From a virus: a DNA stretch of 27,022 bases. Below the pieces are notes generated by a model. That model had not been told where the DNA came from and did no database searches. It saw only the letters and a program-made list of their open reading frames with translations. The stretch spans positions 1 to 27,022 of the IMG/VR virus record IMGVR_UViG_3300046792_000038; one strand, given 5' to 3'. How positions within the stretch are numbered: position 1 is the stretch's first letter; each line of letters starts with the position of its first letter. Below are positions 2,592 to 27,022 of the stretch, one piece after another. A program made the translations under genes and the position numbers.

Positions 2592-3017
2592 ATGAAAAAA
2601 TTACTTTTATTTATTTTACTGTTTCCTATTACGCTAGCAGCCCAAACAGTAAATGGAAGTGTAACTTTATCTGCAACTGCAAGTGATCCAGTTATAGTAG
2701 GGGCAACATCTTGTGGTATTAAAGATGTTCAATTCTTTTCTGGAAGTAATCCTCTCTCACCATTATTTACTACACCTAATTCTGGAACTAACTATACTTT
2801 TGTTTGGGATACAACTAAAGTAACTAATGGAACGTATACCATTACAGCTAAAGCTACAGATAAAGCAGGTTCTAGTACAGATCCTACTAAAGTATGTGAC
2901 GGAAGTAAACCTAATACTGGAACTTCAAACGCATTAACAGTAGTAATTAATAACGCTCAACCTGATATTACTGGCCCAGTAATTAACATTACAATAGTTA
3001 TTTCTGTAGGACCGTAA
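2592..3017 (+). CDS. Secreted Ig-like (bacterial Ig domain) protein, 141 aa
   Basis: The N-terminus MKKLLLFILLFPITLAAQ is a typical signal peptide (two Lys, a hydrophobic core, a small-residue cleavage region). The mature part is one domain: VTLSATASDP, a GIKDVQFFSG strand, then FVWDTTKVTNGTYTITAKAT and DKAGSS. This is the familiar pattern of bacterial Ig-like domains of the PF17957 type. No lipobox is visible, so release to the periplasm or outside is expected rather than lipid anchoring. It sits between the lysis-like cluster and terL, and its TAA shares a base with the terL ATG. Possible roles are cell-surface binding, superinfection exclusion or a virion-exposed adhesin; none is shown by the sequence. 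Confidence 0.7.
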   Translation: MKKLLLFILLFPITLAAQTVNGSVTLSATASDPVIVGATSCGIKDVQFFSGSNPLSPLFTTPNSGTNYTFVWDTTKVTNGTYTITAKATDKAGSSTDPTKVCDGSKPNTGTSNALTVVINNAQPDITGPVINITIVISVGP

Positions 3018-4597
3018 TGGATCTTAGAATAGATTTCCGTAATCCTGAACAAGAAATATTCTTCTGGAGTCGCAAACGTAATAATAGGTTTGGTGGTGGT
3101 TTTGGTAATGGTAAGACTTATGTAGCTTGTCAAAGAGCAGTAGTAATGTTAACTACTTTCTCAGGTTACAGAATGGCTTTCTGCCGGCAGGTTTATAAAA
3201 ACCTTCGAGCCACTACGATGCAAACCTTTTTTAAGATTTGCCCTAAAGAATTTATTTTAACACATGACGAGAACTTTGGTCTTACAGTTTTCATTAATGG
3301 GTCAAGAATATATTGGCTTCATCTCGATCAGATGGATGAGGCTACGGCTAAGGGTTTTGAAATTAATTCGTTAGTTATAGATCAAGCGGAGGAAGTTGAA
3401 GAAAGTATTTTTCTATTAATGGATGCACGTGTTGGCCGTTGGGATAAAGCTATTGTTCCGCAACCTTTATTAGATCAGTTTCCAGAATGGCCACGACATA
3501 AAGTATACGGACAACCATTAGTATTAAATTATGTTGATATTCTCGACAATCCTTCTGATGATGAGTTTCACTGGGTGTCTCGTTATTTTGATGACGACTC
3601 ACCCGAACGGAAGTCATTATCAACGCATTTTTCTATTGTTAGGAAGACTGACGATAATCTTAATGATGCTGGTACTATTTCTCAAATTCTTACAAGAGAT
3701 CAGGCATGGATAGATAAGTATTATTTAGGTAAAAAAGTTATATCCGGAGGAGCAGTACACTATATTCCTAAGGAATGTAAGATTAATCCAGATGAACTAT
3801 CTCAAGAAGTCTGGGATGAACTTCTCAAAATATTGCGAAGCAAAGCATCCTTATTTAAAATACTCGATCATGGAGAAACTTCTCCTACTTGCTGCTTGTG
3901 GATTGCTTGCTACAATGGGATACATATTATATTTGGCGAATATTACCAGCCAAATGAAGTTATTTCTAAACATCGTCAGAACATATTTGATATTAACTCT
4001 GAATTAGTTGGAGAAGAAAATTGGTCTTTAGAAGTAGATGTGGCAGATCCCGCGATCTTTAAAAAAGGTACGGGAGGTCAAAAGAATGGAAACTTTTGGA
4101 CTGTAGCAGATGAATACGCTGATGAGGAAGAAATAACTGCTCCTCCGATACATTGGGGACCAGCAGATAATAATGAACTTGCTACAAGAAATAGAATAAA
4201 TGAATTATTTAGGTGCGTTCCGAAATTTAGGCACCCTATAACGACTATAACAAATTTACTGAACATTAGAAATAAAGTGGATCTCCTTCCAGATCTGCCA
4301 TCACCTGGGCTTTATTTTTTAATGAGTTCTATAAATCGTTGGCCTTATGGGGTGCACCAAGCTGTAATAGAAACATCTCGACAGAAAAAGAAACTCTTAG
4401 GTGAAATAAATGGTAAGAAGTTTTATACTGAAGATCGAGATGAAAGTGTTCCAGATCATGCTTATGATTGCGTAAGATATTATGTTGCATATCACGGAGT
4501 AGGTTTACCAATAGTGCATAAGAAGCCGCCGAAACGAAGTTTTGCATACTATAATCAAGTCTTTAAAAATAAGAACAATTTGATTAATCAAGGTTAA
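3017..4597 (+). CDS. terL: Terminase large subunit (ATPase and nuclease), 526 aa
   Basis: This is the DNA packaging motor. The Walker A motif is GGGFGNGKTY (residues 26-35, Lys33). Walker B is LVIDQAEE (119-126, Asp122 with catalytic Glu125/126). The C-terminal RNase H-like nuclease shows acidic positions in LDHGETSP (Asp284), LEVDVADPAI (Asp341/343) and SVPDHAYDCVRYYVAYH (Asp480/484). Length and domain order fit large terminases. The start overlaps the Ig-like gene's stop by one base (TAATG), and its own stop overlaps the portal start the same way, so the three are coupled. The protein docks on the portal during packaging. No frameshift or missing motif is seen. Confidence 0.93.
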   Translation: MDLRIDFRNPEQEIFFWSRKRNNRFGGGFGNGKTYVACQRAVVMLTTFSGYRMAFCRQVYKNLRATTMQTFFKICPKEFILTHDENFGLTVFINGSRIYWLHLDQMDEATAKGFEINSLVIDQAEEVEESIFLLMDARVGRWDKAIVPQPLLDQFPEWPRHKVYGQPLVLNYVDILDNPSDDEFHWVSRYFDDDSPERKSLSTHFSIVRKTDDNLNDAGTISQILTRDQAWIDKYYLGKKVISGGAVHYIPKECKINPDELSQEVWDELLKILRSKASLFKILDHGETSPTCCLWIACYNGIHIIFGEYYQPNEVISKHRQNIFDINSELVGEENWSLEVDVADPAIFKKGTGGQKNGNFWTVADEYADEEEITAPPIHWGPADNNELATRNRINELFRCVPKFRHPITTITNLLNIRNKVDLLPDLPSPGLYFLMSSINRWPYGVHQAVIETSRQKKKLLGEINGKKFYTEDRDESVPDHAYDCVRYYVAYHGVGLPIVHKKPPKRSFAYYNQVFKNKNNLINQG

Positions 4598-6486
4598 TGG
4601 CTAAAAAAGTTTCGATAGACCTTTCAATTACTACACCTTGGGGACTAAGAATTTCTCAAGCTAATAAGTATTATAAGAAATGGGAAAACCGTTTTCGTTG
4701 TGATACATTAGAAAATTATTGGGAAGGTTTTCAATGGAGATTAGCAAATGGAGTACAGATAGAATTATCTGGGTCCCGCCGGCCATACACAGTAAATCTA
4801 GTTTACACTACGATCAAAAGAAAAGTAGCAAACATAACGTATACTTATCCTGAATTTATTCTAACCCCGCGGCCTGGACAAATGGACTGGAATCAGGATT
4901 TTGCTGTAAGATCAGCGCAGTTAAAAGAAGACGCTCTAAATACTAAGGTTTCAGATCCTAGATTAGAATTTGTAGATGATATACGTTATGCGGCTTTAGA
5001 TAGTTTCTTTAGATTTGCTGTAATGGAAGTTGGATATTCTAAAGATTGGCAGAATCCTAATGCACCTAAACTTGAGATGGAATCTCATGAAGATCCATTA
5101 ATTTCTGATACAAAAGATCGTGTTGTAAAGCATGATGAACTTCCAGATAATGAAGCAGTATACACAAAATGGATCTCTGCAAGAAGATTCAGAGTCAGCA
5201 TGTCCGATAATGTTAAACTACGGAATTGTGACTGGTGCGGCTATTATGGTTTTATCTCCAAAAAGGTTCTTCAAGAAACTGAAGGTATTAAATTTCCAAG
5301 TAACTATGATACAAAGTACTATAGTATAGATACTGCGGACGCATTAGATTATTTTAAAGAAAATAAGATTGAAGGTATCTCTGACCTAGAAGACGGCGAA
5401 CTTTGTAAAGTTTGGCATATTTGGGACAATATTAGTAAGAAAAGGTTATTGATTTTAGATGGTCCATTCGTTGAAATGTATTCTGAGTCTTTTGAAAGGC
5501 TTCCTTTCGCTACTTATAGAAGTGATATCTCCCTTAAAGGATGGTATCCTATTCCTCCTGTATGGCAATGGTTATCTCCACAAAATGAAGTTAATGAAGC
5601 ACGAGAACAAATTAGAAGATATAGACGTCGTGCAACACGAAAATTTGAAGTCTCAAAAGGCGACCACGATACTGATGAATTAGAAAAATTAAAAACAGAC
5701 GAAGATGGCTCTATTATTGTAACTAAGAGAAAAGATGGAAATCCTTCAGTTAGGCCAATCCAAAATCCACAAATAGATGCAAATATTGTTGATGGATTAA
5801 CGATGGCTAAAGATGACTTTGATATAGTTGCAAGTATTCCTGTAGCTCGCGGGCGCGCAAGTGATAGACAAACTGCTACAGCTACTAGACAAATAGCTTC
5901 AGACCAAAGTATAGTAGAAAGTTTAGAACAAATAGATTTCTCTCGATTCGTTTCTGCCGTAGGGAGAGAAATGTTACTCCAGATGGGAGAAAAATTAGAG
6001 CAGGGATTCTGGATTAAATCTTCATTAGACCCTGGTAATCCAGAGGATATTTTTTCTGAGGTTCAAGATAAACAGCCTATCTATAATTATATCACTTCTC
6101 AAAGTCTTGTAGATGGATATGATTTCGATATTATCTGTAATGTCGTTAATTCTACTCCTGAAAACATGGTAAAAGAGAAAGCTTCTTTTATCGAGTTTCT
6201 TTCTTTAGTTACACAATTTCCTGCCATAGCAATGTCTCCTACATTAGTTAGAGAAACAGCATATCGTTGCGGATATAAAAATGAACGTGTTATACGTGAA
6301 TATCAGAAAATGGCTATGCTTGCATTAATGGAAAAGGCAAATATGGCTGGACAAAGTGTAGCAGCTCAAGGATTAATTCCTCAAGGAAATCAAGATAATG
6401 GGGCAGCCGCAGGTATGGCTCAAAGGCAAATGCCTAATTCTCTTAATGATATTACGGCTCAACTTTATTCTCAGGTAGGTCAATAA
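4597..6486 (+). CDS. Portal protein, 629 aa
   Basis: The gene follows terL with a TAATG overlap and precedes the scaffold and capsid genes, the usual portal position. The sequence is typical of large podovirus portals: an N-terminal block rich in aromatic and charged residues (YYKKWENRFR, SGSRRPYTVNLVYTTIKRKV), a long mixed domain, helical stem/crown segments (EVNEAREQIRRYRRRATRKF), and a Gln/Met/Ala-rich tail (about 590-629) likely to be flexible or a crown barrel. The protein would form the dodecameric ring at one capsid vertex through which DNA enters and leaves and to which the connectors bind. Identification rests on size, order and general pattern. Confidence 0.88.
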   Translation: MAKKVSIDLSITTPWGLRISQANKYYKKWENRFRCDTLENYWEGFQWRLANGVQIELSGSRRPYTVNLVYTTIKRKVANITYTYPEFILTPRPGQMDWNQDFAVRSAQLKEDALNTKVSDPRLEFVDDIRYAALDSFFRFAVMEVGYSKDWQNPNAPKLEMESHEDPLISDTKDRVVKHDELPDNEAVYTKWISARRFRVSMSDNVKLRNCDWCGYYGFISKKVLQETEGIKFPSNYDTKYYSIDTADALDYFKENKIEGISDLEDGELCKVWHIWDNISKKRLLILDGPFVEMYSESFERLPFATYRSDISLKGWYPIPPVWQWLSPQNEVNEAREQIRRYRRRATRKFEVSKGDHDTDELEKLKTDEDGSIIVTKRKDGNPSVRPIQNPQIDANIVDGLTMAKDDFDIVASIPVARGRASDRQTATATRQIASDQSIVESLEQIDFSRFVSAVGREMLLQMGEKLEQGFWIKSSLDPGNPEDIFSEVQDKQPIYNYITSQSLVDGYDFDIICNVVNSTPENMVKEKASFIEFLSLVTQFPAIAMSPTLVRETAYRCGYKNERVIREYQKMAMLALMEKANMAGQSVAAQGLIPQGNQDNGAAAGMAQRQMPNSLNDITAQLYSQVGQ

Positions 6487-6668
6487 TGATAGTTGAATCA
6501 GGTAATGGATTTCAAGTTAAGTCTGAATCAGGTTCTAAGAATTTATCTAAACCAGGTTTAAGTAAGAAAGCCGCAGTTAAGAGACTACGAGAAGTAGAAT
6601 ATTTCAAACATAGGAGTGCAGCTAACACTGTAAAACAATATGGAAAATCCGGACGAGACACCGATTAA
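6486..6668 (+). CDS. Small basic protein after the portal, 60 aa
   Basis: It begins at ATG 6486 by a TAATG overlap with the portal stop. The sequence has the form 'gfqVkSesGsKNL...SKKAAVKRLREVEYFKH', a short two-strand-and-helix protein of a type often found between portal and scaffold genes in phages; no function is established that I can name. The C-terminus (SAANTVKQYGKSG) resembles the middle of the next protein (IAGNMAKFYGKKG). It overlaps that ORF by 29 bases. Confidence 0.65.
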   Translation: MIVESGNGFQVKSESGSKNLSKPGLSKKAAVKRLREVEYFKHRSAANTVKQYGKSGRDTD

Positions 6669-6834
6669 GAAGAAAATAGTTAAGAAATCTAAAATGCACG
6701 ACCGCCGCAAGGGTGCGACTAAAGGTGAACAAAGAAAGGCTCATATTGAAAGAATAGCTGGAAATATGGCTAAGTTTTATGGTAAAAAGGGTGATAGTGT
6801 AGCTGAAATGCGTCCAAAATCTAAAGTGTATTAG
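6640..6834 (+). CDS. Small very basic protein, 64 aa
   Basis: It lies between the portal-linked 60-residue gene and the scaffold gene. It is rich in Lys and Arg (KKKIVKKSK, HDRRKGATKG, EQRKAHIER), so nucleic-acid binding or capsid-interior association is possible. The start is uncertain: ATG 6640 has no ribosome binding site and overlaps the upstream gene by 29 bases. ATG 6694 (MHDRRKGATK) would give a 46-residue form but also lacks a strong site. The stop is followed by AGGAG, which serves the next gene. Confidence 0.55.
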   Translation: MENPDETPIKKKIVKKSKMHDRRKGATKGEQRKAHIERIAGNMAKFYGKKGDSVAEMRPKSKVY

Positions 6835-6842
6835 GAGATTAT

Positions 6843-7766
6843 ATGTTACTAAGGAAATTATTCTACTTAAATCAACTAACTATTGATGAAAAAGAAGGTG
6901 ATGAAAAACCTGGCGGAGGTGATGAAGCCAAACCTACTTTAGATGAGGCTATAGATAAAGCAACTAAAGATTTAGATAAAGATGATGAAGATAGCAAGAA
7001 GGATGATGATAAAGAGGATGATAAGAAGGAAGATACTGATGATAAAGATGAAGACGAAGATGAAGATGAGGAAGATGATCTAGATGAGGATCAAAAAATT
7101 CAGGCTAAGAACGTCTTTAAACTTCTTAATAATCCTAATACTTCAATAGAGACTTTAAGAGCATTAGCCGCGCAAGCGGGATTAAAGTTAGAACAAATAG
7201 AGACTAAAAAAGAAGAGACTGCTGCAAAGAAAACGATTAAGGACATCGTAAAGGATAAAATAGGGGCTAAGTATCCTTTCTTAACAGAAGATTTAGGCGA
7301 TTTACTTGAAGATTTATTTAAAACTCAAATAACCGAGTCTACAAAAGACATTAGAACTAAGATTGCTGAGGGTGAACTTAATATACTTAAGGAAAGAATT
7401 GTTGCAGCTCAGGAAAAAGTAGTTTCTGAGTATGTAGATGTTCCAGTAGCAGTTTTAAAGGAATTTGTTAGGATGCAGGAAAATGGTGAGATTGTTCCTG
7501 GACCTAAACAACCTCCAGAAAAATTTATTAGGTTAGGAATCCGCGAGGCTGCGGAAAACCTTAAAATTTCACTAGTTAAAAAGTCTACAGGTTCTAGTGA
7601 AAGTACGTCTAAAAAGAAATCATCTCCATTAGATGAGTTAACGTCAAAGAGTAGGTCTTCTTCCAGTTCCATGAAAGATGGGATTAAATCTACCCAAGTC
7701 AAGAATATTAACGATGCTATAAGACTTGCAGAGGAGTCTATAGCTAAAGAAATGAAGAAGGCATAG
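6843..7766 (+). CDS. Scaffolding-like protein, 307 aa
   Basis: ATG 6843 has AGGAG six bases upstream. Residues about 30-85 form an extremely acidic, Asp/Glu/Lys-only stretch (for example DEDEDEDEEDDLDEDQ). The rest is helix-rich with charged heptads and a basic Ser-rich C-terminal part (KKSTGSSESTSKKKSSPL), ending LAEESIAKEMKKA. Low complexity, high charge, lack of cysteine and a position directly before the capsid gene fit a scaffolding protein that shapes the procapsid and then leaves. No protease motif is visible. The function is inferred from composition and order. Confidence 0.75.
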   Translation: MLLRKLFYLNQLTIDEKEGDEKPGGGDEAKPTLDEAIDKATKDLDKDDEDSKKDDDKEDDKKEDTDDKDEDEDEDEEDDLDEDQKIQAKNVFKLLNNPNTSIETLRALAAQAGLKLEQIETKKEETAAKKTIKDIVKDKIGAKYPFLTEDLGDLLEDLFKTQITESTKDIRTKIAEGELNILKERIVAAQEKVVSEYVDVPVAVLKEFVRMQENGEIVPGPKQPPEKFIRLGIREAAENLKISLVKKSTGSSESTSKKKSSPLDELTSKSRSSSSSMKDGIKSTQVKNINDAIRLAEESIAKEMKKA

Positions 7767-7767
7767 A

Positions 7768-8988
7768 ATGAAAGAGCGAAAAGTTAGTTTTGGTCGAATG
7801 CTTTTTGCGCTTGGAATTTTATCTGCTCAAATTTATTCACTAATTCTTCTTTTTTCTCATCATACTTATGAAGGAGTCTCACTTGCAACTATAACTTTTG
7901 GTGATACCGCGGCACCTTCAGATATTGCAAAATATTTTGATGCCTTATTTACCCAAAGTTTGGCGAATAGTCGAGGTTTGTTAGTAGATCAAATCGGTGC
8001 AAGTAACGCTTTCTTGCACATGATTATGAAATCAGATTCTTATGAGTCCGCGGATGGTGGAACACACATTGAAGAAGAATTAATGTATGCTCTTTCTCCG
8101 ATGGAATCTTATGATGGATTTGATGAATTAAGTACTGCTGAAACTGATGGTGTAACTGCCGCAATTTATGAGTGGCGTCAGCTTGCTACTCCAGTTACAT
8201 ATTCAATGAAGCAGATTATTCAGAATCGCAGAAAGATTATTAATCTTGTTAAAACTAAGATGACTCAGTGCTCAATGGGTATTGAGGAAGGTTTTTCAAG
8301 TAATTTTATGCGTGGTGGTGGTGATGCTTTAATTGACACACCAAAAACTAATCCTATTAATGGTTCACTTTCTATTGAACCATTAGGAAAACTAGTTAAG
8401 TTTGATCCTACAACCTCTACTTTGATTGGAAATATTAATCAAAGTACTTCTACATGGTGGAGGAATCAGACAAAGACTTCTGCTTCTGGAACTAACACAG
8501 GTAGTACATTCATTGCAGAATGGATGAATATTTATAATACTTGTGCACTAGGAACTGGTGGTGCTCCTGATATTTGTTTGGCAGATCAGCAAACATATGA
8601 GATTGCATCTATGTCTCTTTATCAGAAGTATCGTCAAACAAGTTCAGATACAAATTTTCCATTTACTAATATTCGTATCCCTTTTGGTAATGGCCAAAGT
8701 CTATTAGTTATGGATGATAAGGTTCCAGACGCATTTAGTAATTTAACATCTACAGCTACTTTTGGTACAATGTATCTGTTAAATTCTAAATTTTTCAAGA
8801 TTCGTCCTATTGAAGGTCGAGATTTTGAAATGTTGGAAGATGAGAATGGAAAAGTATTTACTAAACCTGCAAATCAGGATGCGCGAGTTGGACATTGTGC
8901 ATGGATGGGACAGGTTACAGTAAATAATCGTAGAAAACATGGCGTCTGGGGTAAAATCCAGCGTTCGGCTGCATTTACTTTTAGCTAG
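7768..8988 (+). CDS. Major capsid protein, 406 aa
   Basis: It follows the scaffold gene by one base. From about residue 43 the sequence (ITFGDTAAPSDIAKYFDALF, then NSRGLLVDQIGASNAFL) has the usual look of phage major capsid proteins. Further on, GIEEGFSSNFMRGGG and the C-terminal MYLLNSKFFKIRPIEGRDFE and QVTVNNRRKHGVWGKI segments fit an HK97-like fold. The odd part is the first ~40 residues: a basic start (KERKVSFGR) and a hydrophobic run MLFALGILSAQIYSLILLF resembling a signal or membrane segment. No in-frame ATG, GTG or TTG lies near residue 40, so the extension seems genuinely translated; AAGG is six bases before the ATG. Confidence 0.85.
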   Translation: MKERKVSFGRMLFALGILSAQIYSLILLFSHHTYEGVSLATITFGDTAAPSDIAKYFDALFTQSLANSRGLLVDQIGASNAFLHMIMKSDSYESADGGTHIEEELMYALSPMESYDGFDELSTAETDGVTAAIYEWRQLATPVTYSMKQIIQNRRKIINLVKTKMTQCSMGIEEGFSSNFMRGGGDALIDTPKTNPINGSLSIEPLGKLVKFDPTTSTLIGNINQSTSTWWRNQTKTSASGTNTGSTFIAEWMNIYNTCALGTGGAPDICLADQQTYEIASMSLYQKYRQTSSDTNFPFTNIRIPFGNGQSLLVMDDKVPDAFSNLTSTATFGTMYLLNSKFFKIRPIEGRDFEMLEDENGKVFTKPANQDARVGHCAWMGQVTVNNRRKHGVWGKIQRSAAFTFS

Positions 8989-9014
8989 ACTTTAATTTAT
9001 ACCCTAATCACAGG

Positions 9015-9095
9015 ATTGGGGCCTTAAGCAAGTTTCAGAGAATATTAATAACCTTACCGTTATGCGAGTTCTTTGATTCTTTAGGCCCCAATTTT
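9015..9095 (+). terminator. Long nested stem-loop after the capsid gene: terminator or structured RNA
   Basis: ATTGGGGCCTTAAG (9015-9028) pairs with CTTTAGGCCCCAAT (9079-9092) with one mismatch in 14, followed by a short T run. Inside the 50-base loop AGAGAA (9037-9042) pairs with TTCTTT (9069-9074, one G-U), and ATAAC (9048-9052) pairs with GTTAT (9059-9063). The nested pairs make one long hairpin-like fold. A typical intrinsic terminator has a much shorter loop, so this may instead be a partial terminator, mRNA stabiliser or processing site that sets capsid versus decoration protein levels. Confidence 0.6.
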
Positions 9096-9131
9096 AAGTC
9101 AAGATGAGACCGACAAAAGGGATCAATTTCA

Positions 9132-9665
9132 ATGAGATTTAAAGTAGTTGGAAGTAAGCGCGATGTAATGGCCGCAGTTTTCCGAAATTCTGATACTATT
9201 CCAATTAAAGCTGGATCTCCAGTTTTTCTAGCTTGTTCAGGAACAGAAGATGGTTTACGCTGTGTTTCTTCAAATAATTTGGCCGCAGCTTTACAGGGAA
9301 ATTACTTTGGTATCGCCTATAATGCTGTAGCTGTTAATGCTTTTGGAGAAGCCCAGGTTTTTGGATTTAATGATGGTGTTCGACTTCGAGTTTCTACAAG
9401 AGCCGTAGCATCTTCAGATGTCTGGGCAAGTTATCCGGCTGGTGGTATTGGAGATCAATTAGTTCCTATTACTGGAACTGGAACTCTTGCAGGAAGTTTG
9501 GATGCTGATCAGGGATTTTCTAATAATCTATCTCAAGCATTCTCAGTTTACTGCAAAGTTAGACTTGGACAAACTTATGCTTCTCAAACAACTCAAGCAT
9601 CTAGTTTGTTATCAGGACAGACTGCATCCTTCTTGACAGTTAAGGTTCAAGTTCACTCTATGTAA
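9132..9665 (+). CDS. Capsid decoration or head-fibre type structural protein, 177 aa
   Basis: ATG 9132 has AAGGG about ten bases upstream. The protein is Ala/Gly/Ser/Val-rich and beta-prone, with few charges. Its opening MRFKVVGSKRDVMAAVFRNS followed by IPIKAGSPVFLACSGTEDGL has the style of small capsid-associated proteins encoded directly after the major capsid gene. It is enclosed by the nested stem-loop and a strong terminator, so it may be made as a separate abundant transcript. No catalytic motif is seen. The alternative is a minor structural protein of another type. Confidence 0.6.
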   Translation: MRFKVVGSKRDVMAAVFRNSDTIPIKAGSPVFLACSGTEDGLRCVSSNNLAAALQGNYFGIAYNAVAVNAFGEAQVFGFNDGVRLRVSTRAVASSDVWASYPAGGIGDQLVPITGTGTLAGSLDADQGFSNNLSQAFSVYCKVRLGQTYASQTTQASSLLSGQTASFLTVKVQVHSM

Positions 9666-9714: not shown

Positions 9715-10587
9715 ATGGAAAATAAGGTAGATATCTCAAATAAAAGGGTTTTTGTACTGGTTAATACCCTACAATCTGTAAACTCTAATGTTTACGCTAA
9801 TCATTGTCATTTTTTTACTTATTCAGCTAAAAATATACCTGGAATTAAATTTGAATTTTGGACCCCAGAAAGAATGGCTATAGATACAGCACGAAATACA
9901 GCCGCTCAAATGGCTATGGAAATGAACTGTGACTATTTAATGTTTATAGATGATGATGTCATGGTTCCACCGGATACTTTAGAAAAACTATTACTTGCTG
10001 ACAAGGATATTATAGCCGGACTCGTTATTATTCGTGGGTACCCGTTTAATAACATGGCATTTAAGTATAAGGAAAATACTATTAAAGACGGTAAAGAGGT
10101 CAGAAATCTTGATTTTTTCAACGATTTAGAAAAAGAATATGTTTATAATGATGAGTGGTATCAAAAAGAAGATATAGTTAAGGTAATAGGTGAGGAGGAA
10201 GCAACTAAACTACCTTACCGTTATAAAGAAATCCAAGAATGTGATGCTATTGGTTTCTCATGTGCTTTAATTAAGATTGATGTCTTAAAAGCGTGTCCTA
10301 AACCATACTTTTTAACTGCAAAAAATCATACTGAAGATGTTTATTTCTGTATGAAGGTGCAGGATAGTTTAGATCCTAAACCTGGAATTTTTCTACATAC
10401 TGGAGTTCAACCGGGGCATATGATGAATGCTGAGCCAGTAGAATTTGCTATTAAAGGTAAATTAAAAGCATTTTTTGATAGTTTAATGGATGAGGCTAAG
10501 TTATATCGTGGTGAAACAGACGATGGTATAGCTAGAAATCAAGCGTATATTGATGCGTGCGTAGCTCAAGTTAGGAGAACAAAATGA
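9715..10587 (+). CDS. GT-A type glycosyltransferase (family 2-like), 290 aa
   Basis: Residues 12-80 form a nucleotide-sugar binding fold: VFVLVNTLQSVN, then ARNTAAQMAMEMNCDYLMFIDDDV with the DDD metal/nucleotide motif at 79-81. Further on are CDAIGFSCALIKIDVL (176-191), TEDVYFCMKV (206-215, the ED acceptor/base region) and VQPGH (231-235), all usual for GT-A enzymes. ATG 9715 has AAGGA upstream and follows the terminator, so a promoter between 9693 and 9714 or read-through is needed. The gene ends in an ATGA overlap with the methyltransferase. Substrate unknown: a virion protein, modified DNA base or host surface sugar are options. Confidence 0.85.
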   Translation: MENKVDISNKRVFVLVNTLQSVNSNVYANHCHFFTYSAKNIPGIKFEFWTPERMAIDTARNTAAQMAMEMNCDYLMFIDDDVMVPPDTLEKLLLADKDIIAGLVIIRGYPFNNMAFKYKENTIKDGKEVRNLDFFNDLEKEYVYNDEWYQKEDIVKVIGEEEATKLPYRYKEIQECDAIGFSCALIKIDVLKACPKPYFLTAKNHTEDVYFCMKVQDSLDPKPGIFLHTGVQPGHMMNAEPVEFAIKGKLKAFFDSLMDEAKLYRGETDDGIARNQAYIDACVAQVRRTK

Positions 10588-11114
10588 AGTTGAACTACGG
10601 ATGTGGAGAGACTAAATTAAAAGATTTTATCAATATAGATGTAGAAGAATCAGTTAAACCTGATCTTGTTCTTGATTTAAAGGTACATCCATTCCCATAT
10701 GAAGCGGAAACAGTAGATTTGATTCATTGTATCCATAATATTGAACATATTGAACAAAGATATTGGCCGCAAATTTTTTGTGAGTTTTGGAGAGTACTTA
10801 AACCTGAAGGTGAATTACGTCTAGCTTATCCTGAGTTTGAAAAAGTAGCTTTTAATTTCTTAGAGAATACAAGAGGTCAGCGGGATTTTTGGAGAGCTAC
10901 TTTATATGGTAGACAACTTTATCCAGGTGATTATCATGTTGTTCCAATGGTTACGGCCGAAGTAGAAGAATATCTAACTTCTTGTGGGTTCCATAATATA
11001 GGATCTGCACCAGAACCGTTTAGAGAATATAATACTTTCTTAATAGCTAATAAAGGTCCTGCTCCCATGACTAGGGAAAATCTATTAGTTAAAGAAATCT
11101 TTTTACAAAAATGA
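10584..11114 (+). CDS. SAM-dependent (class I) methyltransferase-like protein, 176 aa
   Basis: Motif I is LNYGCGETKLKDFINIDV (residues 3-20), with the Gly-Cys-Gly loop and the acidic Asp19 that would bind the SAM ribose. VDLIHCIHNIEHI (44-56) and EFWRVLKPEGELRL (67-80) match the later core motifs of small-molecule or sugar methyltransferases. No DPPY/NPPY amino-methyltransferase motif or PC motif is present, so this is not a typical DNA methylase. It overlaps the glycosyltransferase (ATGA at 10584-10587) and the next gene (ATGA at 11111-11114). Together these suggest glycosylation and methylation of the same target. Confidence 0.8.
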   Translation: MKLNYGCGETKLKDFINIDVEESVKPDLVLDLKVHPFPYEAETVDLIHCIHNIEHIEQRYWPQIFCEFWRVLKPEGELRLAYPEFEKVAFNFLENTRGQRDFWRATLYGRQLYPGDYHVVPMVTAEVEEYLTSCGFHNIGSAPEPFREYNTFLIANKGPAPMTRENLLVKEIFLQK

Positions 11115-23340: not shown

Positions 23341-24558
23341 TCATGGTTTAATACCTTTATTATTTAATGCCGCCGTCATAGCATCTATACCCTTTTGAGT
23401 CATTTGAAAGTAAATTTTATTTCCTTTATGAACCATCATAAGTAAATTAGCTTGAATAAAAGTATCAATAATACTGTCTAATTCCTCAGCTTGAACCTCA
23501 TTCCAATATTGAAATAGGATCTCCTGTTTACTTAACGTATTCTCTTTTGCCTGCCAAAATAAGTTAAATATAAAAGCAGAGCTGCCGGCTTTTTCTGATC
23601 TTCCACTTCCCATAGCATATATTTCATAATTCGGTCTTAATGCTGTAACCTCAAGTATAGACCGTTCTATGTCCTTTAATTCTATTGTCATCCTTGAATC
23701 TGAGACAGCTAATATCATAGCTATCTTTAATATTAGAGTATGAATCCCTTCTACTACCCCAGTTTTACTACCATACTTTTCATAGTTTTTATATAGGTCT
23801 TCATACCATGTTGTAAAAAATCTAGCCGAACAATCATCTAAAGTTACCCTACCGGCCATTTTACTAATTTGTAAAAGTACTTTGACTAATTCATTCCAAT
23901 GCTCTGTATCTTTAAGTTCATCTACAATCTTATCTGGATTAAATAATGAATTAGGTGGTCTAAATTCGTCTGGTTTGATAAGGAGAGTTCTTCGTAATAA
24001 CCCACCGTAGTTAGCTCTTGAAGTGTATACTTCTCTAAGTAATGTTTCATTGCTTCCTGCGAGCATACTGACACATAGGTTTTTAATAATAATCGTTCCT
24101 GATCTGAGGTCATAAGGAAATGTCTCCGAGAAATCATACATTCTTGTTAACATCGGAATAAGTCTAGGATCGTCCACAAAGAATGATGATAATTCTTCTG
24201 CAAGAATTAAGCACGCGCCGCCCCGCAAGGTGATACCTTTTCCTTTTATAGGTAAGTCTTGAGATAATTTATCAAGTATACCTTGAACCGAGGCTGTCCC
24301 TGTAAAAGTCTTAGTTGTATTAGTCTCCGTTAAAAGTGCGTTTGACACTTTCATTGGCTCGCCTTTACGGTATTTAGCTGAATCTGCTAAGAGTACGGTA
24401 TATGTATTAGGATATATCTTACTTCTTTTATATTGTAGAAATACATTAAATCTTAAAGAAGAAGCAATAGTACTATAAGCAGCCCATTTCCAAAAACTTG
24501 TAGGACTCTCGTATTCACGAGTATAGTCAATGAATAGGCTAACATAATCTGACGGCAT
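23341..24558 (-). CDS. DUF3987-like helicase/primase-associated ATPase, 405 aa
   Basis: Residues 18-70 follow the family pattern 'F..W.ay..ia..l...v......iyPN.Y.vLla.sa..RKG': SFWKWAAYSTIASSLRFNVF, then YPNTYTVLLADSAKYRKGEP. The P-loop is atypical: instead of GxxGxGKS it reads ADSAKYRKG (58-66), a variant I associate with phage DUF3987 proteins. The Walker B-like ACLILAEELSSFF (115-127) follows. Residues about 330-400 form a winged-helix domain (SKQEILFQYWNEVQAEELDS, IQANLLMM). It lies 13 bases after the polymerase stop, in the same operon, so it probably helps unwind or prime. Only a weak ribosome binding site (AAAGA) precedes the ATG. Confidence 0.7.
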   Translation of the reverse strand: MPSDYVSLFIDYTREYESPTSFWKWAAYSTIASSLRFNVFLQYKRSKIYPNTYTVLLADSAKYRKGEPMKVSNALLTETNTTKTFTGTASVQGILDKLSQDLPIKGKGITLRGGACLILAEELSSFFVDDPRLIPMLTRMYDFSETFPYDLRSGTIIIKNLCVSMLAGSNETLLREVYTSRANYGGLLRRTLLIKPDEFRPPNSLFNPDKIVDELKDTEHWNELVKVLLQISKMAGRVTLDDCSARFFTTWYEDLYKNYEKYGSKTGVVEGIHTLILKIAMILAVSDSRMTIELKDIERSILEVTALRPNYEIYAMGSGRSEKAGSSAFIFNLFWQAKENTLSKQEILFQYWNEVQAEELDSIIDTFIQANLLMMVHKGNKIYFQMTQKGIDAMTAALNNKGIKP

Positions 24559-24571
24559 TCTTTATTTTCTT

Positions 24572-27022
24572 TCATATTTTAACTTCTACCATATTCATCC
24601 AGTTGGCTTCGCCAATGAATAGTTCTGTAGGAATAACTAATTCGAAATCCCTACTTAAGCTACAATTTAAAAAGTTTATAGGTCGTTCGTAAATTCTTTT
24701 GAATGTTTCTAAGTATTTTTCTTTTAAGTCTTTGTGTACTGTTGCTAGTATTGAGTCGTGTTGTTCTGAGTTAAATTTGTATTCCGTCATGTATCCTGGA
24801 AGTTGGTCTGCTATTCTCCACATAGTAAATTTAGTTAGATCACTTATTGTACTTTGAGGTATATATGCTATTGCTTCTTTAAGCAAGGATTCATCATATT
24901 TAGCATAAAATGTCCTGCTGCGGCCCCAAGGAGTTCTTAAGACACGAGTCCTTCTTATAATATCTTCTATTTCTTTATGGAACACGTCCTTAAGTTGCGG
25001 TTCCCTAGCATGAAATTTTTCTAGTGCATCTATACAGAATCCTAAAGGTAAATGTGTCATTTGAGCCATTCTAAATGCGCCCATAAGATAGTTACCCGCG
25101 TGTCTCACTTTTTTTCCAAGGTCATAATAAGTTATTCCTACTTTAGGGATCGCGGGACCTTTAGACGTAATTAAATTTGCATCCATGTTAAAGATCGCCG
25201 CAGCAGTTTTTGCGTGAATCTTTGGTTTAAGATCCATATTAGCCAAGTTTTCATAGTCTTCAGCAAGAACAAAAACAACCCTCGCTTCTGCTCCTGCTCC
25301 GTCACCTTCAATAAAAATAAAGTTATGCGGTGGGATAAAGATTTCTCGCATATCCGAAGCAATTTCCGCGTCATCGAAATCATTAAATATTTCCTCATCT
25401 ATAGCAAAGCCATGTTTACTTATTGTTTGGAGACTTCTACCCAACCTTTTGGTAGCCTTTGTAGAGTTAGGATCATCGGAAGTTCTAAATCTTTCATCAA
25501 TAGTTTTAGAGCAAGAACTTCGTCCTGTTTCTGTACCAGACAGATTATAAGATCCTCTAAAAGTATTATCTGGATGTAATGGTGTATTGAGATACTCAAC
25601 CACTTTTGCAAGTTTTCTACATACGATAATTCTGGATAATATATTATATCCAATTTTACCAGTTTTTTGGTCATCTCCGTGGTGTATAAGTAAGTCATCA
25701 AGCGTATCTTTATCGGTCTTAAAGGATTTAACTCCAAATTCGTTAGTTTTATATCTAAGGGGAAATCCAAGTTGGTCATAGATTAAACTTCCTACTTGTT
25801 TAGGGGATCTTGCATTAAACTCTTTATTGCCTACAAGTGACCTTAAGATAAATTCATTATTATCATAAAGTCTATGATACTTTTCGAGCTTCTTATGTTT
25901 AACTTCATTATCTACTAAAAGTCCTGTATTGTCTAGGTTCTTGTATATAAGAATTGATGGAGCAATCTCGTTATTATATAACTGTTTTGCATATGGGTCT
26001 TCTTCCAACTCTTTATCTTCTTCAACTGAAACGATGTGGGCCGCAAGGCTATCTTTTGCGTTATATAAGTATAATCTGTCTTTATCGTGCTTTTTTGGGT
26101 CAAATTCTTTTCCTTCATCTTTATAGTATGGGATGTTAGTATAGATACTAGTATAGAAATCTAGTCCCTTAGGTAACTCTGGATAGATTAATGCACCCTT
26201 TAACATGGAGTCAGATGTTACATTATTTAGATAGAATCCATGCCGTTCAAGGATAATCCAGTCATACTTAATATTCTGATTATTCTTCTCAAGACTTGAA
26301 GAAAGTATCTTAGCTATACGTTTCCAGAATAAGACTCGTTCATACTTATCTAAGGTATAGTCTCCCATTGGGACTGATACTGCTTCCCAACCATCAAAGC
26401 AAAAACTAATACAGGTTATTAAACCACCGTAAGTCTCTATATCAAACGTAACCCTTTTAGGTTCTTTCTTCCATTGACGGTCTAAAAATCTATCAAATTC
26501 TTCATACCGGCGGCATACCCAAACTATTCCTTCAGAAGATATATCTCTATTTTGTCGTTCTTTTGCTATTTTCTGAAAGTCTAATTGTGTATAGGATCTT
26601 GCCGTGGCATCGGAGTATAAAAGTTGCGGGCCTACTATTGGTATAACTTTAATTTGTGATCCAAGACTAAGTATCCAATCAGCCCTAAGAGGTAAAACAC
26701 TCCCGCGATAACAATAGACCCAATACTTCCTACTTCTGGGTTTAGATATAGTACTGATATATGGATAGACAACGCCAAGAGCAATATCGTCGAGAGGAAT
26801 AATAACAGTCGGATTAATGTCACGTAATTCTTGAAGTAAAACTTCTTCATAATATTTTAAGTCTACATTATTTAGTGCTTCTTTTAAGAGTTTAGTATTA
26901 GTACCTGAGTAAGCAAGTTTCTCCTTAATGAAGGTACTACGGTAACAGTTCTTAATGTTTATACCGTGTGGCCTTAAGTAGGAGTTTAAAGTACCTTCGA
27001 TTGATCCTACAAGTGCAATCCC
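24572..27022 (-). CDS. DNA polymerase, family A, with N-terminal UDG-like domain (5' end outside window), at least 816 aa
   Basis: The frame is open from the window edge; the internal ATG at 26368 is not the start, because the exonuclease motif lies upstream of it. Numbering from the window edge: residues 1-160 resemble family-4 uracil-DNA glycosylase (GTLNSYLRPHGINIKNCY, INPTVIIPLDDIAL, IKVIPIVGPQLLYSD). The 3'-5' exonuclease is FDIETYG (193-199), KYDWIIL (about 253) and YNAKD (320-324). Polymerase motif A is EGDGAGAEAR (572-581), motif B GKKVRHAGNYLMGA (636-649), motif C QHDS (754-757). GTETGRSS and the LQTIS strand are also present. It synthesises phage DNA with proofreading. The UDG-like HPS motif reads GPQ, so that domain is probably not a glycosylase. 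Confidence 0.9.
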   Translation of the reverse strand, partial: GIALVGSIEGTLNSYLRPHGINIKNCYRSTFIKEKLAYSGTNTKLLKEALNNVDLKYYEEVLLQELRDINPTVIIPLDDIALGVVYPYISTISKPRSRKYWVYCYRGSVLPLRADWILSLGSQIKVIPIVGPQLLYSDATARSYTQLDFQKIAKERQNRDISSEGIVWVCRRYEEFDRFLDRQWKKEPKRVTFDIETYGGLITCISFCFDGWEAVSVPMGDYTLDKYERVLFWKRIAKILSSSLEKNNQNIKYDWIILERHGFYLNNVTSDSMLKGALIYPELPKGLDFYTSIYTNIPYYKDEGKEFDPKKHDKDRLYLYNAKDSLAAHIVSVEEDKELEEDPYAKQLYNNEIAPSILIYKNLDNTGLLVDNEVKHKKLEKYHRLYDNNEFILRSLVGNKEFNARSPKQVGSLIYDQLGFPLRYKTNEFGVKSFKTDKDTLDDLLIHHGDDQKTGKIGYNILSRIIVCRKLAKVVEYLNTPLHPDNTFRGSYNLSGTETGRSSCSKTIDERFRTSDDPNSTKATKRLGRSLQTISKHGFAIDEEIFNDFDDAEIASDMREIFIPPHNFIFIEGDGAGAEARVVFVLAEDYENLANMDLKPKIHAKTAAAIFNMDANLITSKGPAIPKVGITYYDLGKKVRHAGNYLMGAFRMAQMTHLPLGFCIDALEKFHAREPQLKDVFHKEIEDIIRRTRVLRTPWGRSRTFYAKYDESLLKEAIAYIPQSTISDLTKFTMWRIADQLPGYMTEYKFNSEQHDSILATVHKDLKEKYLETFKRIYERPINFLNCSLSRDFELVIPTELFIGEANWMNMVEVKI

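Follow-up and report, generated by a model that had tools for sequence, protein, structure and literature searches.

Fusions of a uracil-DNA glycosylase (UDG)-like domain with a phage family A DNA polymerase (PolA) have already been described. In Bacillus phage SPO1, gp31 is a family A polymerase with a family-4 UDG-like domain at its N-terminus, and this domain matches the structure of the Thermus enzyme TTUDGA (PDB 1ui0) with an E-value of 2.8e-27. DNA polymerase I of Pseudomonas phage PaBG (gp205) is also a UDG-polymerase fusion and has been treated in terms of uracil removal (PMC7412058); a text search of that paper found no active-site analysis of gp205. Judging from sequence matches, the PDB entry 9qhs_A ('Putative DNA-directed DNA polymerase I', 1142 aa) is apparently a solved structure of another such fusion, and no paper describing 9qhs was found in the open-access literature. 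TTUDGA and mycobacterial UdgX, on the other hand, are free-standing Fe-S enzymes with the motifs GE(A/G/Q)PG and HP(S/A). UdgX is close to family 4, and the roles of three of the pocket residues discussed below are taken from it: E52 (motif A), N91 (TN motif) and H178 (motif B) are its catalytic and uracil-binding residues (PMC10359453). In vaccinia virus, the UDG D4 serves as a polymerase processivity factor, only short products being made without it; the K160V mutation abolishes this processivity function but leaves catalysis and DNA binding in place (PMC4450493).

The window analysed here is a whole virus record of 27,022 bases (IMGVR_UViG_3300046792_000038), in which the DNA polymerase gene is cut at the right end of the contig. 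The gene occupies an open minus-strand frame of 816 codons (24572-27022) that reaches the contig edge, in agreement with the sequence-only reading, which had continued the frame 218 codons 5' of the internal ATG that begins a 598-aa open reading frame (ORF). These 816 residues of a total of 849 match PF00476 (E 1.8e-22) and phrog_17 DNA polymerase (7.7e-61). The sequence to the right of the window, whose retrieval had been proposed, was read from two near-identical IMG/VR contigs (L001 and L002), which supply the missing first 33 residues; the protein starts there with MIETEKVLVASHGYSDADIFFLGGHPLKDDILN. Compared over 2451 bases, the window and L001 show 4 nucleotide differences and a single amino-acid difference. 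The full protein of 849 aa consists of the N-terminal domain, a 3'-5' exonuclease and a family A polymerase in one frame, which is the arrangement of the SPO1-type fusion; the joining of a UDG-like domain to a family A polymerase had been proposed.

The N-terminal domain, as far as it lies within the window (26558-27022, minus strand), comprises residues 34-188 of the 849-aa protein, the first 33 being outside. The three strings on which a family-4 UDG ancestry had been suggested by eye were located in it: GTLNSYLRPHGINIKNCY in the region 26921-26995, NPTVIIPLDD within 26774-26815, and IKVIPIVGPQLL at 26618-26653. Searched by itself against Pfam, the window protein matched no UDG family, its weak GSKIP match was taken as chance, and PF03167 found nothing in the window contig; since such single-sequence searches failed, homology had to be established with relatives, profiles and structure. 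Two profiles were built, one from ten N-terminal domains of the window's clade (A1) and one from sixteen relatives with intact motifs (A2). Against the PDB, the best chain for A1 was 1ui0 (E 8.6e-4), followed by 27 chains that all belonged to family-4 UDG or UdgX, and an unrelated chain appeared only at E 0.57; A2 matched 1ui0 at E 1.4e-34. The UDG_fam4 model TIGR00758 matched all 16 members of A2, with L028 below the curated cut-off, and the two profiles could be aligned along almost the full length of both (probability 99.3). The score of A2 on the first 192 residues of the window protein was 33.8 bits, whereas 2000 shuffles reached at most 4.8 bits, so the resemblance is not due to chance. 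The AlphaFold model of the L001 domain (pLDDT 93.1, pTM 0.84) has the alpha/beta/alpha fold of family-4 UDG: in Foldseek, its 36 best PDB matches were all family-4 UDG or UdgX, including 1l9g (E 8.5e-12) and TTUDGA itself, the comparison that had been proposed (1ui0, E 2.5e-11, TM 0.69 by target length, probability 1.00). Profile and model identify the domain as a genuine homologue of family-4 UDG. In 9qhs_A, the apparent solved fusion, residues 14-156 match A2 (E 3.8e-9), but it was not matched by A1, the profile of the window's clade.

Although the domain shares with TTUDGA and UdgX the fold, the order of motifs, the RG motif and the prolines of motifs A and B, it lacks their pocket residues E, F, N and H and their cysteines. 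In the window protein, these four positions are occupied by G, L, T and G. Motif A, predicted to lie beyond the window, was indeed found in L001 and L002, where it reads GGHPL instead of GE(A/G)PG, without the catalytic Glu. The Phe of PFVG, which stacks on uracil, is replaced by Leu in GIALVGS (27002-27022, minus strand), the counterpart of G(K/R)PFVG. The segment at 26921-26995 (minus strand), which ends with CYRSTFIKE and is the counterpart of VYVTNVVK, has Thr in place of the uracil-reading Asn. In motif B, IKVIPIVGPQLL (minus strand), HP(S/A) has become GPQ, the catalytic, uracil-contacting His being Gly (VGP at 26627-26635). The loss of this His was the broken motif originally noticed; the alignment bears it out, and the damage had been understated, since the losses extend to motif A, to the Phe and Asn that stack on and read uracil, and to a loop Gly. 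The latter is the Gly of 'LG', which is Asp in NPTVIIPLDDIALG (26774-26815, minus strand); 14 of 14 intact relatives keep it, and Asp replaces it in each of the nine sequences compared from the window's clade. Located after the third strand, this Gly probably matches by position the Gly-Ser phosphate loop in family-1 enzymes. Across the window's clade, the Asn position is T, I, A, V or L and the His position is G or S. This clade lacks the cysteines of the [4Fe-4S] cluster, as do nearly all fused relatives, the complete set of four being found only in Pseudomonas phage PMBT14. In addition, a basic and aromatic insert, SKPRSRKYWVYCYRGSVLPLR (26684-26746, minus strand), partly specific to the clade, continues into a conserved RGS; its basic stretch KP(R/K)xR(K/x)(Y/H)W, which precedes CYRGS in the protein, is common to most of the clade. 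The mean net charge of the domain is +7.6 in the window's clade and +3.8 in intact domains. The motif losses are shared by nine relatives with 44-54% identity to the L001 domain, which excludes sequencing error as their source.

Among 105 distinct readable domains, the pocket is intact (EFNH) in 43 and all four residues are lost in 33. Together they form a natural series from EFNH through the partial states DFYH, DLNH and DLCG to the fully lost GLTG. The Glu position is Asp in nearly all eroded sequences outside the window's clade and Gly within it. SPO1, unlike the window, has a pocket that is only partly altered (E, M, S, H). A quick, unrooted tree was inferred from the exonuclease and polymerase part, leaving out the N-terminal domain. 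Its intact outlying members are MW202489, L078, L068 and L054, and the eroded sequences fall into a 28-member clade that includes the window, a 13-member clade nested among intact sequences, and Desulfofustis phage MD01, which adjoins the intact L078. A constraint uniting the two large eroded groups was 38 log units worse (p-AU 0.019, in a test that left out the long branches PMBT14 and MW202489), and a single origin of these two clades is rejected. Judged from this tree, the pocket was lost in at least three lineages. PMBT14 (L081, 4944-7448) has kept the four Fe-S cysteines, and its pocket (D, G, P, H) is broken differently, possibly representing another independent loss that may be connected with modified DNA; a dCMP deaminase gene and a gene resembling that of thymidylate synthase neighbour its polymerase.

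The retention of the domain was examined by a second search of viral and genome collections, using only the exonuclease and polymerase part as query (A5). The N-terminal domain was present at 86 of the 87 loci returned, the sole exception (L170) being a 267-residue fragment at a contig edge; these loci are the nearest relatives, many on contigs shared with the first search, and polymerases free of the domain may occur at greater distance. In the pairs for which dS was computable, dN/dS was 0.06-0.13 in eroded domains vs 0.03-0.10 in the exonuclease and polymerase part, values that are reliable as an order of magnitude, dS being high and near saturation in many pairs. By these ratios, the eroded domain is under purifying selection. 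The window's clade has 49 invariant domain positions, among them new residues in the pocket region (G24, L37, E42 and D111), which points to fixation and not drift. PF03167 gave exactly one match in each of the 43 records in which it matched, always in the polymerase. Among the matches listed in a plasmid search, only the polymerase part was found, from about residue 198 of the query, and no record reached 80% coverage. The search of genome collections returned seven metagenome-assembled genome (MAG) contigs, from which no reliable host could be assigned.

In the remainder of the protein, the catalytic residues are intact. The exonuclease domain (approximately 25928-26527, minus strand) contains the motifs TFDIETY (26429-26449), NQNIKYDW (26258-26281) and YLYNAKDS (26048-26071), and its catalytic residues D227, E229, D287 and D357, together with D607 and D789 of the polymerase (L001 numbering), are invariant in 46 full-length sequences, as expected from an active family A enzyme. 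The polymerase domain (24683-25843, minus strand) corresponds to the PF00476 match over residues 394-780 and resembles Klenow fragment in Foldseek (E 2.3e-28). The full-length model (pLDDT 90.6) has a pTM of 0.89, an indirect measure that is consistent with a fixed placement of the N-terminal domain; the 50 Foldseek matches listed for it were only polymerases and are silent on domain placement. In L069 (ORF 5875-9402) and L072 (ORF 3182-6631), about 330 extra residues precede the conserved RHA of the fingers motif; these inserts contain a LAGLIDADG domain, end with ITDDFIVTHNT, and apparently represent in-frame inteins at the polymerase active site. The polymerase ORF of L079 stops early, at 565 aa, though the match runs on to 8254, which suggests a frameshift, an intron or a split gene.

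The polymerase gene is followed directly downstream by a primase-like gene (23341-24558, minus strand; phrog_14296 DNA primase, E 1.2e-13), and upstream of the polymerase, in L001, are a PD-(D/E)XK nuclease gene and small genes. No thymidylate synthase homologue was found in any of 45 IMG/VR relatives, some of whose contigs are fragments; only SPO1 and PMBT14 have one. In this respect too SPO1, a large phage with a dUMP hydroxymethylase nearby, differs from the window's clade. Similarly, dUTPase was absent from all 36 records searched, whether intact or eroded, some again being fragments. These searches gave no correlate for a tie between pocket loss and thymidine modification or uracil metabolism. 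Elsewhere in the window, a glycosyltransferase gene (Anp1/GT2-like, 9715-10587) and a methyltransferase gene (10584-11114) lie within the structural module, flanked by major head protein and adaptor genes, and genes for a DUF5675 protein (1978-2430) and a Bacterial Ig-domain protein (2592-3017) are located just ahead of the terminase gene (3017-4597).

Three roles had been put forward for the domain: uracil sensor, DNA clamp and structural domain. The last fits best, and we consider it probable that the domain is a pseudoenzyme retained as a docked structural, DNA-binding or partner-binding part of the replicase. In the ancestral event, a family-4 UDG would have been joined to the N-terminus of a phage PolA; the pocket would have stayed intact in many relatives and been lost stepwise in the window's lineage, where the domain would no longer excise or read uracil. 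Packed against the exonuclease and polymerase core as a fixed part of the polymerase, it would most likely stabilise the enzyme and add DNA or partner contacts that favour processivity, perhaps with some contribution from the new conserved basic loop. The pocket has been lost often and repeatedly, yet no case of a lost domain was seen, and this suggests a built-in replicase pseudoenzyme. The clamp is a candidate role, but not through the canonical DNA face of UDG, the alteration of which (loop Gly to Asp) weakens the simple version of this idea. As an analogy, vaccinia D4 likewise places a UDG fold in the replicase of a virus, where its role can be separated from catalysis, but it is a distinct, still active family-1-type protein, attached through A20 to a family B polymerase. 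It is suggestive, though only by this analogy, that D4 K160 lies in the Gly-Ser loop, which is apparently altered in the window domain.

It is unlikely, but the best surviving alternative, that the pocket was repurposed, with another base, a nucleotide or a partner peptide bound via G24, L37, E42, D111 and D112. Positions invariant in the intact clade have been re-fixed with different residues in the window's clade, as such a change would predict, but fixed residues are equally expected from a repacked structural core or interface, and the ligand is only hypothetical. Somewhat less credible still is a sensor of uracil or another base, which would not cut but hold template uracil ahead of the fork and so stall the polymerase. 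Archaeal PolB, with its N-terminal pocket, is a precedent for such read-ahead of uracil, and the retained UDG fold and universal fusion to the polymerase agree with it. However, the Asn, Phe and His that hold uracil are all replaced in the window's clade, the Asn position is free to vary, unlike a kept recognition pocket, and the absence of dUTPase offers no link to uracil metabolism. The canonical UDG residues of a pocket able to hold uracil are lost, although a different pocket may exist; the sensor is unlikely because its uracil-holding residues have gone. That the domain is a decaying, functionless passenger might be suspected from the loss of its active site in several lineages, but this reading, which we regard as very improbable, is rejected on the retention, the invariant positions and the dN/dS far below 1 described above. 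Least probable of all is a still-active glycosylase with unconventional chemistry: motifs A and B still have their Pro and the RG motif is retained, superfamily members vary in both motifs A and B, and active enzymes do not all have the motif B His (MUG and TDG use other residues), which leaves unusual activity a slight chance, but the water-activating and uracil-contact positions were lost jointly and the loop Gly is Asp.

With the pseudoenzyme reading preferred for the window, a broader proposal can be made tentatively: phage PolA may have repeatedly converted a fused UDG into a non-catalytic replicase module for processivity or partner binding, in parallel to the poxvirus UDG factor and with many intermediates still extant. 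The fusion itself was known, and the new part is the erosion series; no description of repeated, graded loss of the uracil site with the domain retained, in a large family of soil-phage polymerases, was found in the open-access literature. Domains like that of the window should not be annotated as active uracil-DNA glycosylases, because PF03167 still matches many eroded copies above the Pfam cut-off. The series from intact to lost pockets offers ready-made proteins for separating repair from replication roles. UDG-polymerase fusions have hitherto been read as repair-coupled polymerases, and a domain that outlasts its uracil site in several lineages argues that its main job may lie in the polymerase itself.
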